DNA of 45,141 nucleotides from Treponema sp. (GTDB taxonomy: Bacteria; Spirochaetota; Spirochaetia; Treponematales; Breznakiellaceae): the NCBI GenBank assembly GCA_031257385.1, contig JAIROT010000214.1, positions 1-45,141 on the forward strand, given 5' to 3'. Below, in pieces: positions 475-45,141 of this stretch. The notes beneath the pieces were generated by a model that saw nothing but the letters and a program-made list of their open reading frames with translations, was not told the origin of the DNA and made no database searches. Made by a program: the position numbers and the translations under genes. Each line of letters starts with the position of its first letter. Position 1 is the first letter of the stretch.

Positions 475-2541
475 TTACATCCAGTTACTTGTAGTATCCA
501 CGCCGTCATCGGGATCGATAAAACTACCGGCGCCGGTAAAGTCAACATAGAGCCGTACGTCCGGCCCGGCTGTGGTGGTCCGGGTTCTGGGGCCGTAGTC
601 CGAATACGCCGCACTCGGACTGTTGGTAGAGTCTGTATTGTCGCCGGTAATGGTTCCGCCCCGCTTGGCAAAGATACAATCCGTATTGGTATGCACCCCG
701 GCCCCGGTGGGGGCCCTGTTCCCGCTAATGGTTCCACCGCTCATGGTAAACTTGGCGTAAGAAGCGGAAGAGCCCAGTAATTGTACCCCGCCGCCTGAGG
801 CGTTGGCGGTATTACCGCTGATTTCCCCGCCGCTCATGGTAAACTCGCTGTTACCGCCGGATGAACCGATATTGATGTAAACTCCGCCGCCAATGTCGCT
901 GCCGTTTCCGCTGATTTTCCCGTCGCTCATAGTGAAGGTTCCGTCCCCCACAAACACCCCGCCGCCTGAGGCGATGCTGATGCCGATGGCGGCGCCGGAG
1001 GCGGTATTGCGGCTGATCTCCCCGCCGCTCATAGTGAAGGTTGCTCCGTACCCCACAAACACCCCGCCGCCTGAGGCGCTGGAGCCGCCGGAGGCGGTAT
1101 TATCGCTGATGGTTCCGCCGCTCAGGGTGTGGGTTCCTCTCCGCATATACACCCCGCCGCCTGAGGCGTTGGAGGCGCTGGAGGCGGTATTGCCGCTGAT
1201 GGTTCCGCCGCTCAGGGTGAAGGTTCCGTCATACACATACACCCCGCCGCCGTTGCCTCTGGAGGCGGTATTGCCGCTGATCTCCCCGCCGCTCATAGTG
1301 AAAGTTCCGTCATACACATACACCCCACCGGCGGCGGCGCTGGAGGCGGTATTGCCGCTGATGGTTCCGCCGTTCATAGTGAAAGTTCCGCTATCCACAT
1401 ACACCCCGCCGGCGGCGGCGCTAGAGGCGGTATTGCCGCTGATGGTTCCGCTGTTCAGGGTGAAGGTTCCGCCAGCCACAAACACCCCGCCGCCGCTGTT
1501 GGAGGCGGTATTGCGGCTGATGGTTCCGCTGTTCAGGGTGAAGGTTCCGCCATATACAAACACCCCGCCGCCGAGGCCGATGCCGCCGCCGGCGGTATTG
1601 CGGCTGATCTCCCCGCCGCTCATAGTGAAGGTTCCGCCAGCCACAAACACCCCGCCGCCGCCGTTGGTGAGGGCGGTAGAGGTCCGTACGTTGTTTCGCA
1701 GCGTGGTCCCGTCATACATGAGGAGCCTGCCGCCGCTCACCTCGATTAAGGGATAGTCGCCGCTACAAGAGGCGCCGCCGCCGTCAATGGTCAGGCCGAG
1801 ACCGCCTGAAGGACGCGCCGGGTCTTCCCCCAGAGTGAGCGAGCCGCCCGCGACTCTGAATAACGCGCCCGCCGTTATCCCGGCGCGTTCGATTTTCTGC
1901 GTTCCCGTCCCCGCCGCGGACGAGAGGAGTATGTCCGTATTGGCCGGAACGGTAACGGGCGCGGAGGAGGCCGGGACGCTGATGTTCTGTGTGACGAAGA
2001 CATACTCCCGTTTGCCGTCCGTGCGGGCGCGGGCGGCGGCCTCGCTTAACTGCGCCCAGTCCGATACTTCCGTGGCCGTGTACATGATAACGGTAACGGG
2101 GGTGATATTGCCGGCGGTGATGGTAACGCTTTCTTCCCCCACGGCGCGTAACATACGGGCGGGAAAGGCGGCGGTGTAGCCGGACGGCCGGTCGCTCACG
2201 GCGCGGGCCGTGATGACCCAGACGCCGGGGTCAAGTTCGATGTCCAGCGTGCCGCCTCCGTTGACGGCCGCGGTTTTGACATCCCCGCCGGGGCCGGTAA
2301 GCCTTACGTCAATGACCATGGCGGCCAGTTCCGTGCCTATATCTACCGCTGTCCGGGGAGCGGCCCTGGTCCTGGCCTCCGGCCCGTACAGGTTAAGACT
2401 GAAGGCAAAGGCCCCGGTCTCCGCCGAAGCGCCCCCGCCGCTCCCGTTTCCGTCTTCGACATTCACCGGGCTGTAGCAGGCGGACAGGCCCGCCAGCGCC
2501 GCGGCGATAATGATAATGGTAATAAACGCTTTTCTCATCAT
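475..2541 (-). CDS. Beta-helix repeat lipoprotein (surface protein candidate)
   Basis: This is a 688-residue protein. The chosen start (MMRKAF) follows a GGGAG ribosome site by 7 nt; an in-frame ATG 18 nt upstream lacks that support. Residues ~1-22 are a lipoprotein signal with lipobox LSAC, so the protein should be lipid-anchored at the Cys. Residues ~25-220 form a unique N-terminal region. After this come about 12 imperfect units of 23-35 residues built on GGGVFV..GTFTMSGGTISGNTAS, which is typical of right-handed parallel beta-helix (pectate-lyase-like or polymorphic membrane protein-like) folds. The C-terminal ~60 residues leave the repeat and end near TTSNWM, with no evident anchor. The likely role is at the cell surface or in adhesion, inferred from architecture alone. 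The repeated DNA makes recombination-driven length variation plausible. Confidence 0.85.
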   Translation of the reverse strand: MMRKAFITIIIIAAALAGLSACYSPVNVEDGNGSGGGASAETGAFAFSLNLYGPEARTRAAPRTAVDIGTELAAMVIDVRLTGPGGDVKTAAVNGGGTLDIELDPGVWVITARAVSDRPSGYTAAFPARMLRAVGEESVTITAGNITPVTVIMYTATEVSDWAQLSEAAARARTDGKREYVFVTQNISVPASSAPVTVPANTDILLSSAAGTGTQKIERAGITAGALFRVAGGSLTLGEDPARPSGGLGLTIDGGGASCSGDYPLIEVSGGRLLMYDGTTLRNNVRTSTALTNGGGGVFVAGGTFTMSGGEISRNTAGGGIGLGGGVFVYGGTFTLNSGTISRNTASNSGGGVFVAGGTFTLNSGTISGNTASSAAAGGVYVDSGTFTMNGGTISGNTASSAAAGGVYVYDGTFTMSGGEISGNTASRGNGGGVYVYDGTFTLSGGTISGNTASSASNASGGGVYMRRGTHTLSGGTISDNTASGGSSASGGGVFVGYGATFTMSGGEISRNTASGAAIGISIASGGGVFVGDGTFTMSDGKISGNGSDIGGGVYINIGSSGGNSEFTMSGGEISGNTANASGGGVQLLGSSASYAKFTMSGGTISGNRAPTGAGVHTNTDCIFAKRGGTITGDNTDSTNSPSAAYSDYGPRTRTTTAGPDVRLYVDFTGAGSFIDPDDGVDTTSNWM
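700..1670 (-). repeat. Tandem degenerate coding repeats (about 12 units)
   Basis: Within the lipoprotein gene, units of roughly 70-105 bp recur. Each encodes GGGV(F/Y)V..GTFT(M/L)(S/N)GG(T/E)IS(G/R)NTAS. Neighbouring units are close to identical over 40-60 bp in places, for example those around 1290-1460. The last unit (IFAKRGGTITGDNT) is degenerate. Unit lengths differ by multiples of three, so the reading frame is preserved. Confidence 0.85.
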
Positions 2542-2654
2542 TTTGTTACTCCCTATCATTAATGAAACTGAAAACCGCCGCCCGCGCCGCGCTCAGGTCT
2601 GCCGGGCAATCGGCAGGTGATCCGAAGAGGCGCAGCCCGCGGGGGAGCCGCCGG

Positions 2655-2775
2655 CATATGCGTATACTTTGCGAAAAGACCCGCTGATTACGCTGATTTT
2701 CACGGATTAAAGAGGCTAAAATCAGCGTTAATCTGCGAAATCTACGGATCCCCCTTTATTAAGTATATGCATATG
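2655..2775. repeat. Palindromic element, 121 bp, CATATGCGT-type ends (copy 1)
   Basis: The ends are inverted repeats: CATATGCGTATACTT at 2655-2669 and AAGTATATGCATATG at 2761-2775, with 14 of 15 positions complementary. The interior is itself an imperfect inverted repeat. The segment around 2681-2700 (CGCTGATTACGCTGATTTT) pairs with the segment around 2718-2738 (AAAATCAGCGTTAATCTGCG). The whole can therefore fold into one long hairpin. No reading frame is present. A second element with matching ends lies at 3836-3967. Confidence 0.55.
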
Positions 2776-2901
2776 GGAGCCGTCAGTCTATAGTTGCTTC
2801 AAAATTAATCCAAGTGAGGGGGGTATGCCATAATTAGCCCAATTTTGATGAGCTTGAAAACATAAAATACCGGCAAATCCATGGGCCGCGTTTCAAATTT
2901 A

Positions 2902-2949
2902 TTCGAAAGTCCGGTTTAATACCCCGCGGCTTGCCGCGCGGAGGCTCAT
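2902..2949 (+). repeat. 48-bp dispersed repeat, copy 1
   Basis: This copy reads TTCGAAAGTCCGGTTTAATA, then CCCCGCGGCTTGCCGCG, then CGGAGGCTCAT. The same 48 bp occur at 27977-28024 with one difference (CCGG versus CTGG), and the left 38 bp occur at 7578-7615. The CCGCGGCTTGCCGCGG part forms a stem-loop. On the minus strand the end reads TGAGCCTCCGCG, so it places a stop codon at its boundary. A diverged fragment (17 of 18 bp, opposite orientation) lies at 4052-4069. Confidence 0.7.
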
Positions 2950-3029
2950 TCATCCTTTTTCCGTTTCCATGTTTTTGGGCCGGGTAATCCGGGTCCTGTT
3001 GGTTTAAGACCGGTATACGGACTATGATG

Positions 3030-3076
3030 CGCTATATATGGGGTATGGGGACAGACCCCAGGCACTAGATATAGCG
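3030..3076. repeat. Small inverted repeat with GGGG-acaga-CCCC core
   Basis: The arms CGCTATAT (3030-3037) and ATATAGCG (3069-3076) are perfectly complementary. They enclose a second stem, GGGG/CCCC, around the loop acaga. Another stem, CCGGAG/CTCCGG, follows at about 3103-3119. This lies downstream of the minus-strand gene ending at 3140 and could act as its transcript end, although no T tract follows. Confidence 0.4.
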
Positions 3077-3139
3077 TATTGGATATAATGACGGCATATT
3101 CCGGAGTCACGCTCCGGTTCGCGCACCGCTTCACGAGGC

Positions 3140-3703
3140 TCATTGCGCCCCCGCTGTTGCCATTGCCGCCGTAATTGTTCCCGCCAGGGCCGCGCTGCAG
3201 GCGGTCAAAAAAGCGACACGCCAGACTTTGCGGGCTTTTTCAAGGCGCGCTATCCGCAGTTCCGCGGTTTGGCGATAAGCCGCAAAGGATTGTTCCAAGC
3301 TCGTCAAGGAGGATCCGGCTTTCGTCAATTCTGCTTGCAGCAAGGTCAAGTCCGTCTGTGATTCTTCCTGAGTGTTCAAGAGCGCTGTCGATGCCGTCTG
3401 CAAGTACTCCAATTCCGCCCTCAATGCGTCCAGCTCTTCTTTTGATTTCCTGAGCGTATCCTGCAAGTTCTTCGAGTTCTTGCGCGAGTCTTCCAGCTCG
3501 TTCCTGAGCCTCCCGTTGAGATCGGCGAGCTGATTCGAGATCTCGATCAACCTGGACAGCTCGTTCTCTGAGACTCCCCCGTTCGCCATTTGCCCTGATT
3601 CCAAAGAATACAGCGGCAACGGCAATCCCCAGCACAAGGCCGCCCACAAAAGCAAACAGGCAGGGGTTTTTGAGAAAATTAAAAATATTTTTTTCCGCCA
3701 CAC
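3140..3703 (-). CDS. Exported coiled-coil protein with C-terminal membrane segment
   Basis: This is a 187-residue protein. I chose the GTG at 3703 because AGGAG precedes it by 6 nt and a signal peptide follows at once (KKIFLIF, then a hydrophobic run to about residue 35). Residues ~45-150 are rich in L, E, Q, S and K with heptad spacing (SENELSRLIEISNQL, RNELEDSRKN, EELDALRAELEYLQ), indicating a long coiled coil. A second hydrophobic segment (VAFLTACSAALAGTITAAM) closes the protein. The layout recalls holin- or spanin-like and other small treponemal coiled-coil proteins; its function is unknown. The frame is supported by high GC at third codon positions. An overlapping 183-residue frame has AT-rich third positions and was rejected. 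The stop is TGA followed by GCCTC, as at the 48-bp repeat. Confidence 0.65.
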   Translation of the reverse strand: MWRKKIFLIFSKTPACLLLWAALCWGLPLPLYSLESGQMANGGVSENELSRLIEISNQLADLNGRLRNELEDSRKNSKNLQDTLRKSKEELDALRAELEYLQTASTALLNTQEESQTDLTLLQAELTKAGSSLTSLEQSFAAYRQTAELRIARLEKARKVWRVAFLTACSAALAGTITAAMATAGAQ

Positions 3704-24049: not shown

Positions 24050-24372
24050 TGTTTATTTGAAGGGAAATATCCGCAAACCTGCACCGTGGACGGCGCGCCG
24101 GAGGTTCCGCTGTACTTCCACTTTATAACCGTCGATAAGGCAGGCAAGAGGAGCGCCGTGGTGAACTACCTGGTTCCCTTGACGGTTCCGGTACAGCTTA
24201 CGAATCTGATGGGGAAGGTTACCGGCCCCAATTCGATAACGCTCAGCTGGACGACCCCCCCCCTGACGCTGACCTGCAGTATGTGGAGATCACCTGCGAA
24301 CCCTCCGCCGGGAAGGCGCGGACAGTGAACGCCGTTACCCTCCGCCCCGAAGATGTTGACGGCTCGCCGTAT
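24050..24372 (+). pseudogene. Fibronectin-III-like domain remnant, frameshifted at C9
   Basis: In one frame it reads DGAPEVPLYFHFITVDKAG, then LMGKVTGPNSITLSWTTPP, an FN3-like strand pattern. The frame then breaks at a run of nine C residues (about 24255-24263) and resumes one frame over as DADLQYVEITCEPSAGKA with DGSPYV. There is no start, no signal peptide and no downstream continuation, so it is a fragment of a larger surface protein. It overlaps the end of the integrase remnant. Confidence 0.45.
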
Positions 24373-24399
24373 GTTGTACGCCAAATATGCCGGCGCCGT

Positions 24400-25320
24400 T
24401 TCAGCAGTGACTTTCACTTTCCCGCAACACAGAAATTGTTTGTATCCCCATACCGCTTTCTCCGTGCCAAACGGGTGTTCCGCTACATAGGCCGTGACGG
24501 GAACCTTACCCGCACTCCCGCACTTAGGCGCCTTCGCTCCGTCCGCATCGGTGTAGTTATGCCTGACATGTATCAGTCCGCCCTCAATGTCCGCCCATTG
24601 CAAGCCCCGGATCTCCCCGCGTCAAAGTCCGCAGCCCAGCGAGAGCAGCACCGCCGCAGGCTGCCGGAGGTCCCCTCTTTCCGTGTTCAAGAGGCCGATC
24701 AACGCCCGAGCCTCATTTTCAGTCAGGACGCCTTTTTCAGTCCTCGCCTCCGCGCTGTTCTTTATATCCGCGCATGGATTGCTTTTTTACCAAGCCGCGC
24801 CGGAGCGCCTCTCCCATCGGCACCTTCACGCATTGGAGACAGATATTGATTCCCCGTGCCGAGAAGCCGCATCCGGAAAGCCATGTACGCCATTTTTCCA
24901 GTGCGTCCACAGTCAAACCATCAAGGGGCAAGCCGATGAAGGGAGTGTAGGAGTCTGTGGGGCTTTAGCCCAAATGATAAAGAAAATGCACAATTTTGTG
25001 CATTTTCTACCTTGCAGACTCCCAAAGGAGCCTAAAATCGGGGATTTTTGCGGTCAAAGGCCGCAAAAATCCACAAGTCCCGCAGGCTCGTAGGTATCGA
25101 TGCAGTTCTTTGTTTTACCCAGACAGTTTGCCGTATACGCAGCCGATATAGGCCGCCCTTGAGCTTTCCGGTCGGCGGGGTAGGTCTCGCCCCAGAAGGT
25201 TTTCAAAAAGGGAATAAGCATCCGTTCCGGCTTCGGCCTGTCGAAGGCCCCGGCAGCCAGCATAGATCGCGCCGTTCGCTCCGCCGGGGACTTTGGGCTT
25301 GTGACAGGAACCGCTGTAGA
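24400..25320 (-). pseudogene. Tyrosine recombinase (integrase) remnant interrupted by a MITE
   Basis: Pieces in order on the minus strand are as follows. An N-terminal arm and core region includes PFLKTFWGETYPADRKAQGR. The 139-bp element then intervenes. The core-binding part continues as LPLDGLTVDALEKWRTWLSG and FSARGINICLQCVKV. The catalytic part reads LTENEARALIGLL, LLSLGCGL-stop-RGEIRGLQWADI and GLIHVRHNYTDADG. The in-frame TGA at 24622-24624 replaces the expected catalytic Arg codon (CGA to TGA). There is also a frameshift near 24730, and no complete His-x-x-Arg/Tyr end is seen. Its closeness to tRNA-Gly suggests the remains of an island integrated at that tRNA. Confidence 0.75.
24951..25089 (+). 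mobile_element. MITE-like double-hairpin element, copy 1 (139 bp)
   Basis: The ends GAGTCTGTGGGG and (complement) GAGCCTGCGGGACTT are inverted repeats. The 4-bp target GTAG is present on both sides (24947-24950, 25090-25093). Inside, CAGACTCCC-AAA-GGAGCCT near 25015-25035 pairs with each outer end, so the element folds into two side-by-side hairpins. It has no coding capacity. It splits the integrase remnant: deleting it with one GTAG rejoins DTY to TPFIGLPLDG in one frame. Confidence 0.85.
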
Positions 25321-25361
25321 ACGTACCGAACCTGCCCTCGTATTACAAAGACTTACATCAA

Positions 25362-25433
25362 AGCGGCTGAACGGAGTCGAACCGTCGTCTCTAGCTTGGA
25401 AGGCTAGGGTAATAACCGTTATACGACAGCCGC
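25362..25433 (-). tRNA. tRNA-Gly (anticodon UCC)
   Basis: The acceptor arms GCGGCTG (25427-25433) and CAGCCGC pair, with discriminator T at 25362. The anticodon stem-loop CTAGC-CTTCCAA-GCTAG gives UCC, and the T arm contains GGTTCGACTCC. CCA is not encoded. An integrase remnant lies about 40 bp past its 3' end. Confidence 0.95.
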
Positions 25434-29216: not shown

Positions 29217-29392
29217 CCGGCATATAGGCGGCGGCGCGGAAAGATACCCTGGACCGGCCCTCCGCTCCGCCTTGCGCCCTTTTACAATGTCCGCTGCCTG
29301 ACGAAAACTGCGGGCCGTGATTTTTTCAGGGTTTCGTTGACTGGAAGGCGGGGTACATATCGAACGGGCCTCCGGTCAAGTAATTAGACCGG
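29217..29392. other. Intergenic stretch with no recognisable feature
   Basis: The 176 bp between the obgE stop and the MITE at 29393 hold no supported gene, RNA or clear terminator. A TTTTTT run near 29322 lies after GGGCCGTGA but has no matching stem. Confidence 0.4.
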
Positions 29393-29532
29393 GAGTTTGT
29401 GGGACTTTGCCCCTAAAATTAAATATTTTTGCAATTTATTGCAAAAATATACCTTACAAACTCCCAAAGGAGCCTCGAAATGCGTGAAATTACACAATTC
29501 TCTTCTCGGATTACGCAAAGTCCCACAGGCTC
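29393..29532 (+). mobile_element. MITE-like double-hairpin element, copy 2 (140 bp)
   Basis: The ends GAGTTTGTGGGACTTTG and (complement) GAGCCTGTGGGACTTTG are inverted repeats with two differences. CCGG lies on both sides (29389-29392, 29533-29536). The centre again reads ACAAACTCCC-AAA-GGAGCCT. The left stem has changed on both arms relative to copy 1 (TCTG/CAGA to TTTG/CAAA), which keeps pairing. The loop regions differ strongly from copy 1. It lies 16 bp past the aminotransferase stop and may serve as its transcript end. Confidence 0.8.
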
Positions 29533-29551
29533 CCGGATACCGCGGGGAGGC

Positions 29552-45006: not shown

Positions 45007-45019
45007 CCATATATCCCAG

Positions 45020-45141
45020 GAGCCTGTGGGACTTGTGGATTTTTGCGGCCTTTGACCGCAAAAACCCCCGATTTTTGGGCTCCTTTGGGAGTCTGCCGCA
45101 AGGTAGAAAGTGCACAAAATTGTGCATTTTCTTTATCATTT
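45020..45141 (-). mobile_element. MITE-like double-hairpin element, copy 3 (cut by window edge)
   Basis: This copy is inverted relative to the other two. The 122 visible bases match copy 1 with few differences, starting at the end GAGCCTGTGGGACTTG and including the central GGGAGTCTGCC/GGCTCC region. Its visible flank is CCAG (45016-45019). By comparison with copy 1, about 21 bases are missing at the right edge. Confidence 0.8.

Follow-up and report, generated by a model that had tools for sequence, protein, structure and literature searches.

The window, that is the entire stretch of 45,141 nucleotides analysed here, represents contig C289 of a Treponema genome assembled in 308 contigs and 3.1 Mb (G000, the own genome in the following). 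It harbours three copies of an element that lacks a coding gene, ends in terminal inverted repeats and is present in high copy number, and which thereby classifies as a MITE. Copy 1 interrupts an integrase remnant; a tRNA gene (25362-25433) is located in the same stretch, as is a weak IS1182 remnant on the minus strand, ~380 bp from copy 1. The features of the locus are as follows:

24355-24570, minus strand: IS1182-family transposase remnant, weak (NF033551, E=4.7e-5), which may be a chance match
24740-25345 (approximate), minus strand: integrase remnant interrupted by copy 1, recognized as an open frame across the joined flanks
24947-24950: left target duplication GTAG of copy 1, from the 4-bp register test
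24951-25089, plus strand: copy 1 of the MITE, 139 bp
24951-24965, plus strand: left terminal inverted repeat of copy 1, GAGTCTGTGGGGCTT, counterpart of the 3' end of the partner IS
24951-25021, plus strand: half 1, in which GAGTCTG (24951-24957) pairs with CAGACTC (25015-25021), closing the hairpin at 24981-25008
25028-25089, plus strand: half 2, in which GAGCC (25028-25032) pairs with GGCTC (25085-25089), closing the hairpin at ~25041-25072
25075-25089, minus strand: right terminal inverted repeat of copy 1, GAGCCTGCGGGACTT, counterpart of the 5' end of the partner IS
25090-25093: right target duplication GTAG of copy 1, from the sequence
29389-29392: left target duplication CCGG of copy 2, from the sequence
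29393-29532, plus strand: copy 2, 140 bp, a diverged subfamily in which the stems of half 1 are kept via compensatory changes
29533-29536: right target duplication CCGG of copy 2, from the sequence
45020-45141, minus strand: copy 3, cut by the contig end, with a CCAG flank at 45016-45019

The two complete copies, and the third that runs off the contig end, have the positions and ends given in the original prediction. Copy 1 terminates in GAGTCTGTGGG and GAGCCTGCGGG, and copy 2, an apparently single member sharing ~72% identity with the main family, in GAGTTTGTGGG and GAGCCTGTGGG. A search with copy 1 retrieved at least 40 copies with 90-98% identity from the own genome, where the end motifs matched 245 times as compared to 12 times for the reversed control; therefore, the family comprises roughly 100 or more copies. 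Many contigs of this genome, including the window's, terminate inside a MITE copy, as is expected for a repeat longer than the assembly word. The predicted family length of 139-140 bp holds for the full copies, next to which forms of 108, 77, 56 and 46 bp and one form of 446 bp also exist. In G057, a better assembled genome, we observed solo right halves of ~68 bp as well as 15-bp remnants, each bounded by two CTAGs; the latter read GAGYYTGTCGGRCTC, occur at four places (L119, L122, L124, L126) and may have arisen by deletion or represent excision scars. The 446-bp form (L071:11021-11466) contains additional hairpin-rich DNA and has CTAG on both sides. Other hairpins, perhaps representing a second hairpin family, reside within MITE copies at L110/L125 (G057:C11) and L123 (GGGGTGTCCAATAAGT... 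and GCAGTTTCTAACGTTCTC...).

Insertion of copy 1 into the integrase remnant, and the joining of the frame upon its removal, were reproduced: excision of copy 1 together with one GTAG yields an open integrase frame without a stop codon (...NCIDTYTPFIGLPLDG...), which matches Phage_int_SAM_5 with E=1.2e-4, just above the curated cut-off. For other copies of the own genome, three out of 17 joined frames extend over at least 132 codons across both sides, the 95th percentile of arbitrary joins being 127, which backs insertion weakly. The evidence for an empty site is the restored integrase frame at copy 1.

The two-part fold and insertion at stop codons

Single-strand folding of the element gave z-scores, relative to shuffled sequence, of -8.0 for copy 1 and -8.6 for copy 2. 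The MITE interior, which apart from the ends is mostly a sequence of its own, is made up of two halves that are related to each other but inverted; either half can close as a hairpin. An alignment of 36 diverse full-length members was used to assess the fold. In the local fold, each end pairs with the interior and each half carries one hairpin; this arrangement pairs 94.7% of cells, as compared to 79.0% in shuffled sequences and 50-54% when slid by one column. Changes on both sides were found in 21 out of 31 pairs of the local fold, and none of 500 shuffles scored as high, with the reservation that shuffle counts overstate significance for related sequences. The pairing between left end and interior is of the Watson-Crick type in nearly all sequences (97.2% of cells). 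End-to-end pairing is equally supported, but via fixed G-U pairs. In addition, three unpaired stretches are conserved over genera (TACCTTGCAAAC, AATCGGG and CCACAAGT). Any transposon should show pairing between its ends, whereas helices in the interior and conserved unpaired stretches go beyond that expectation. An integron attC site, which would display the core sites RYYYAAC/GTTRRRY, was rejected: the core sites are absent, and copy 1 contains neither GTT nor AAC.

Three readings of the fold were compared, that is hairpins acting in transposition, a function at the RNA level, and palindromes that correct themselves, and the evidence does not choose between them. The most plausible reading is that the DNA would form a hairpin or cruciform that acts during transposition, and that it may also influence where transcripts end. 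Alternatively, the arms may be complementary only through self-correction of DNA palindromes by template switching, leaving the fold without function. In favour of this, the two long arms of a hairpin covary even at positions of free sequence variation, and the 108-bp forms, which have lost a hairpin, suggest slippage on these palindromes. However, self-correction predicts neither that unpaired stretches are conserved over genera nor that the left end keeps pairing with the interior, and we regard it as unlikely, albeit worth keeping in mind.

A function in RNA gains interest from the position of the elements relative to genes. In G057, 35 of the 59 CTAG flanks of the element provide the TAG stop codon of an adjacent coding frame, defined as open over at least 50 codons with the expected GC3 peak, as compared to ten out of 77 other CTAGs of the same DNA (p=1.4e-8). 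Among the 19 full-length elements, 17 adjoin one or more of these stop codons. The own genome, whose copies are young and near identical, has eight stop codons among 50 TAG-type flanks, the GC3 test being weaker at its lower G+C. We infer that the excess at stop codons arose by survival of harmless insertions over time rather than by aimed insertion, which fits these counts. An element landing on a CTAG that doubles as stop would keep the stop codon and do little harm, so that older copies would be found mostly there.

Elements flush with stop codons in G057, together with strong compensatory change in all four helices, could also be explained by a structured RNA or transcription terminator that is selected within host transcripts and for which mobility is secondary. 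However, no Rfam 15 covariance model matched at gathering score (TD-2 reached 19.7 bits versus a cut-off of 48.7 and did not recur in eight other loci), and a terminator scan of the elements returned nothing clearly above shuffles. Moreover, the elements in G057 show no clear bias in orientation towards the neighbouring gene (~10 by the right end and 6 by the left end, counted by eye), and the family is patchy within the window's genus and has undergone a recent burst with copies inside reading frames. Taken together, these observations render an RNA or terminator improbable as the primary role.

Target duplications and the probable IS1182 partner

To return to the reading as a mobile element, copies of the own genome were sampled by place, and 48 of them had both flanks. 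Identical direct 4-bp flanks are present in 18 of the 48 pairs, as compared to a mean of 6.4 and a maximum of 13 in 2000 shuffles, whereas registers of 5-8 bp give no identical flanks and registers other than 4 bp on the whole almost none. The flank consensus is CTAG in the own genome, and flanks in G057 are almost invariably CTAG. Among the 42 pairs other than CTAG/CTAG, 12 are identical in direct orientation (CCAG, CTGG, CCGG, GTAG, CAAG, CTCG, CCCG) and one in inverted orientation; the 12 identical pairs therefore provide evidence against a fixed flank that belongs to the element. The remaining 30 of the 48 pairs are unequal, 16 by one base and 14 by two or more. A single mismatch is compatible with decay from a CTAG pair, and the more unequal pairs may, as we assume, result from chimeric contigs or recombination between copies. 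However, the short forms, which assembly should handle well, are among the copies with unequal flanks, and the unequal pairs exceed what neutral decay alone easily explains, which counts against the duplication model. Thus, a short direct target duplication is present, and many pairs are decayed or unequal. The clean 4-bp duplications originally described are confirmed for copies 1 and 2 (GTAG and CCGG) and for 18 of the 48 pairs, but not for the other 30; the 4-bp register is beyond chance.

Unequal flank pairs in such numbers might also be expected if insertion replaced a target hairpin, as is known for the IS1182-family member IS1272 (PMC5678879, PMC4923244), the flanks then representing the feet of the old hairpin. 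However, the direct 4-bp identity is beyond chance and includes GTAG/GTAG, CAAG/CAAG and CCCG/CCCG, and the integrase frame is restored when one GTAG is kept, which makes hairpin replacement very improbable here.

Insertion with target duplication calls for a transposase, and the one implied to act in trans is probably of the IS1182 family, as ISs of this family were found that share the terminal repeats of the MITE and are flanked by CTAG. In the own genome, an IS1182-family fragment on contig C220 (NF033551, E=5e-21) terminates at CTAG followed by GAGTCTGTGGGACTT, and on contig C2, CTAG followed by CAGCCTGTGGGACTT is positioned ~67 bp ahead of an IS1182 N-terminus truncated by the contig end. 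Both pieces lie at contig ends, no complete partner IS being assembled, and we infer that they belong to one partner. Complete partners with CTAG on both sides are present in related genomes, namely G047 (1449 bp, decayed gene), G240 (1647 bp, open frame) and G369 (1640 bp); the G240 transposase scores 332.5 bits with NF033551 versus a cut-off of 270. Thus, the MITE has its ends in common with ISs encoding an IS1182 transposase (own C2 and C220, G047, G240, G369). The transposon with the same ends plus a transposase that the original prediction suggested looking for therefore exists, as two contig-end fragments in the own genome and complete in related genomes, and the ends, for which the original prediction knew of no named family, belong to the IS1182 type.

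In the own fragments and in G047, the IS 5' end CAGCCTRT resembles the right end of the MITE and the 3' end SAGTYTGT its left end, a pattern not kept by all of G240, G369, L326, L327 and L211. The repeat core of the IS equals that of the MITE from the same genome in all four genomes compared, reading GTGGG in the own genome, GTTGC in G185 and G238, and GTTGC/GTTGT in G240. Two MITEs (L205, L086) directly adjoin IS1182 ends, CTAG being common to both. Transposon ends appear to be exchangeable between IS and MITE, because the G240 IS (L325:546-2192, G240:C109) has 92 bp from the left part of the MITE as its 5' end, with the CTAG flanks kept. Derivation of the interior from a partner IS by internal deletion is common among MITEs but not required. 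Here, the MITE interior was not seen at the termini of the G047 and G369 ISs or of the own fragments, and the 92 bp shared by G240 at one end more likely reflect an exchange of ends than origin by internal deletion. Apparently, the MITE did not arise simply by deletion from any of the partners identified, its interior being mostly its own.

Across 394 genomes, MITE and IS1182 co-occur with an odds ratio of 4.4 (p=6e-8), a statistic that ignores relatedness. The MITE-rich genome G057 has no IS1182 match, so that there the partner was lost or is a different one; others likewise contain the MITE without an IS1182 match, as with orphan MITEs. A search of GTDB stretches for an autonomous form via longer-spaced end pairs found none. 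DDE_Tnp_1 (PF01609) as such was rejected, with five matches in G000, one of which is the IS1182 piece, and none in G057. At L284:3735-3862 and 1393-3152 (G009:C43), we observed another IS1182-type IS whose ends differ (GAGGCTGTCGAAT), together with what seems to be a 128-bp MITE of its own.

REPIN/BIME elements are likewise short and numerous, consist of two inverted hairpin units with a conserved foot tetranucleotide and depend on a RAYT enzyme without target duplication (PMC2817692 for RAYTs), and movement by such a Y1 HUH transposase would suit the size, copy number and inverted hairpin halves seen here, the solo halves with CTAG flanks, the tetranucleotide beside GGAG and the Y1_Tnp genes in four of four genomes tested, yet it is highly improbable, as the flanks are direct repeats rather than inverted foot tetranucleotides (12 versus one among pairs other than CTAG/CTAG), and the RAYT genes are unlinked to the element, no Y1 gene being bracketed by it whereas IS1182 genes are bracketed by its ends. 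Separately, the own genome encodes ~11 RAYT-like frames (C15, C17, C69, C72, C126, C229, C230, C283 and others; L145, L148, L154-L160), mostly of ~160 aa, with the HUH motif apparently lost and the flanking DNA conserved; they possibly represent a non-catalytic multi-copy relative of Y1 transposases.

Spread, known relatives and proposed mechanism

Spread was measured with a covariance model of the fold, which was positive for 88 of 394 genomes of the order, distributed over 40 of 92 genera and two families (85 and three genomes). In a sample of 393 genomes from the phylum, 14 were positive, all of them within the same order. Within the window's genus, the distribution is patchy. Named public records with the element are mostly Treponema and Spirochaetaceae MAGs, and viral contigs gave no match for the pattern used. 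One element-bearing contig is labelled Prevotellaceae; its sample also yielded a rich treponeme bin, and the contig is probably misbinned.

Taken together, our data reveal a repeat family with a 4-bp register, a restored frame, and ends and CTAG flanks common to IS1182-family ISs. The element is very probably a MITE moved in trans by an IS1182-family transposase with 4-bp target duplication. Mobilization in trans is suggested because ends and target are shared and because the G240 IS carries a MITE-type end. Mechanistically, an IS1182-family DDE transposase would act in trans on the terminal inverted repeats of ~15 bp, and a staggered 4-bp cut, preferentially at the palindrome CTAG, would generate the duplication; compensatory changes would have kept the fold across the order. 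As a more tentative and rather doubtful extension, the IS1182 transposase might recognize hairpins extruded from the MITE, either two local ones or a long one formed via end pairing. The fold would then be the selected working part of a long-lived, structure-dependent transposon lineage that does not rely on one particular IS. Such a lineage would come to rest on CTAGs that double as stop codons and would provide hairpins at gene ends throughout the spirochaete order.

Elements of this kind are already known from earlier reports of MITEs that are linked to IS1182 and have 4-bp repeats (PMC11578231, PMC3852290). MITEPye1 of Paracoccus yeei, linked to the IS1182-family member ISPye18, similarly lacks a gene and has IS1182-type terminal repeats, 4-bp direct repeats and a stem-loop fold; it is mostly intergenic and by description confined to one species with one to three copies per chromosome, whereas the treponeme family has ~100 or more copies in the own genome and a fold conserved over 40 genera (PMC11578231). 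The ISMac2-linked MITEs of Methanosarcina acetivorans (160-169 bp, seven and 14 copies) also have an IS1182 partner, and a 4-bp repeat is listed for one of the two; they are archaeal, have longer terminal repeats (25-26 bp), and the passage on them mentions no conserved two-part fold (PMC3852290). IS1182 members are reported to target palindromes (Siguier 2015, cited in PMC4923244). IS1272, the best-studied member, replaces hairpins and makes no duplication; therefore, a 4-bp duplication is not universal in the IS1182 family. IS1272/TnSha1 resembles the treponeme partner in its transposase family and in a preference for palindromic or hairpin targets, which are often transcription terminators, but is autonomous and deletes the target hairpin without duplication (PMC5678879, PMC4923244).

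New within the open-access literature are the family, its partner, the two-part fold conserved over an order and the link to stop codons. The IS1182-linked MITEs found in the literature form small groups in one species, as compared to two families and 40 sampled genera here. The treponeme family has a clear partner, falls into end subfamilies matching the ends of that partner, and uses CTAG as a target, a sequence overlapping with stop codons. Thus, two questions become testable. The first is whether IS1182 transposases, of which one is known to target hairpins, also make use of hairpins at the ends of their own elements; the second is how settling on stop codons allows a mobile element to multiply safely.
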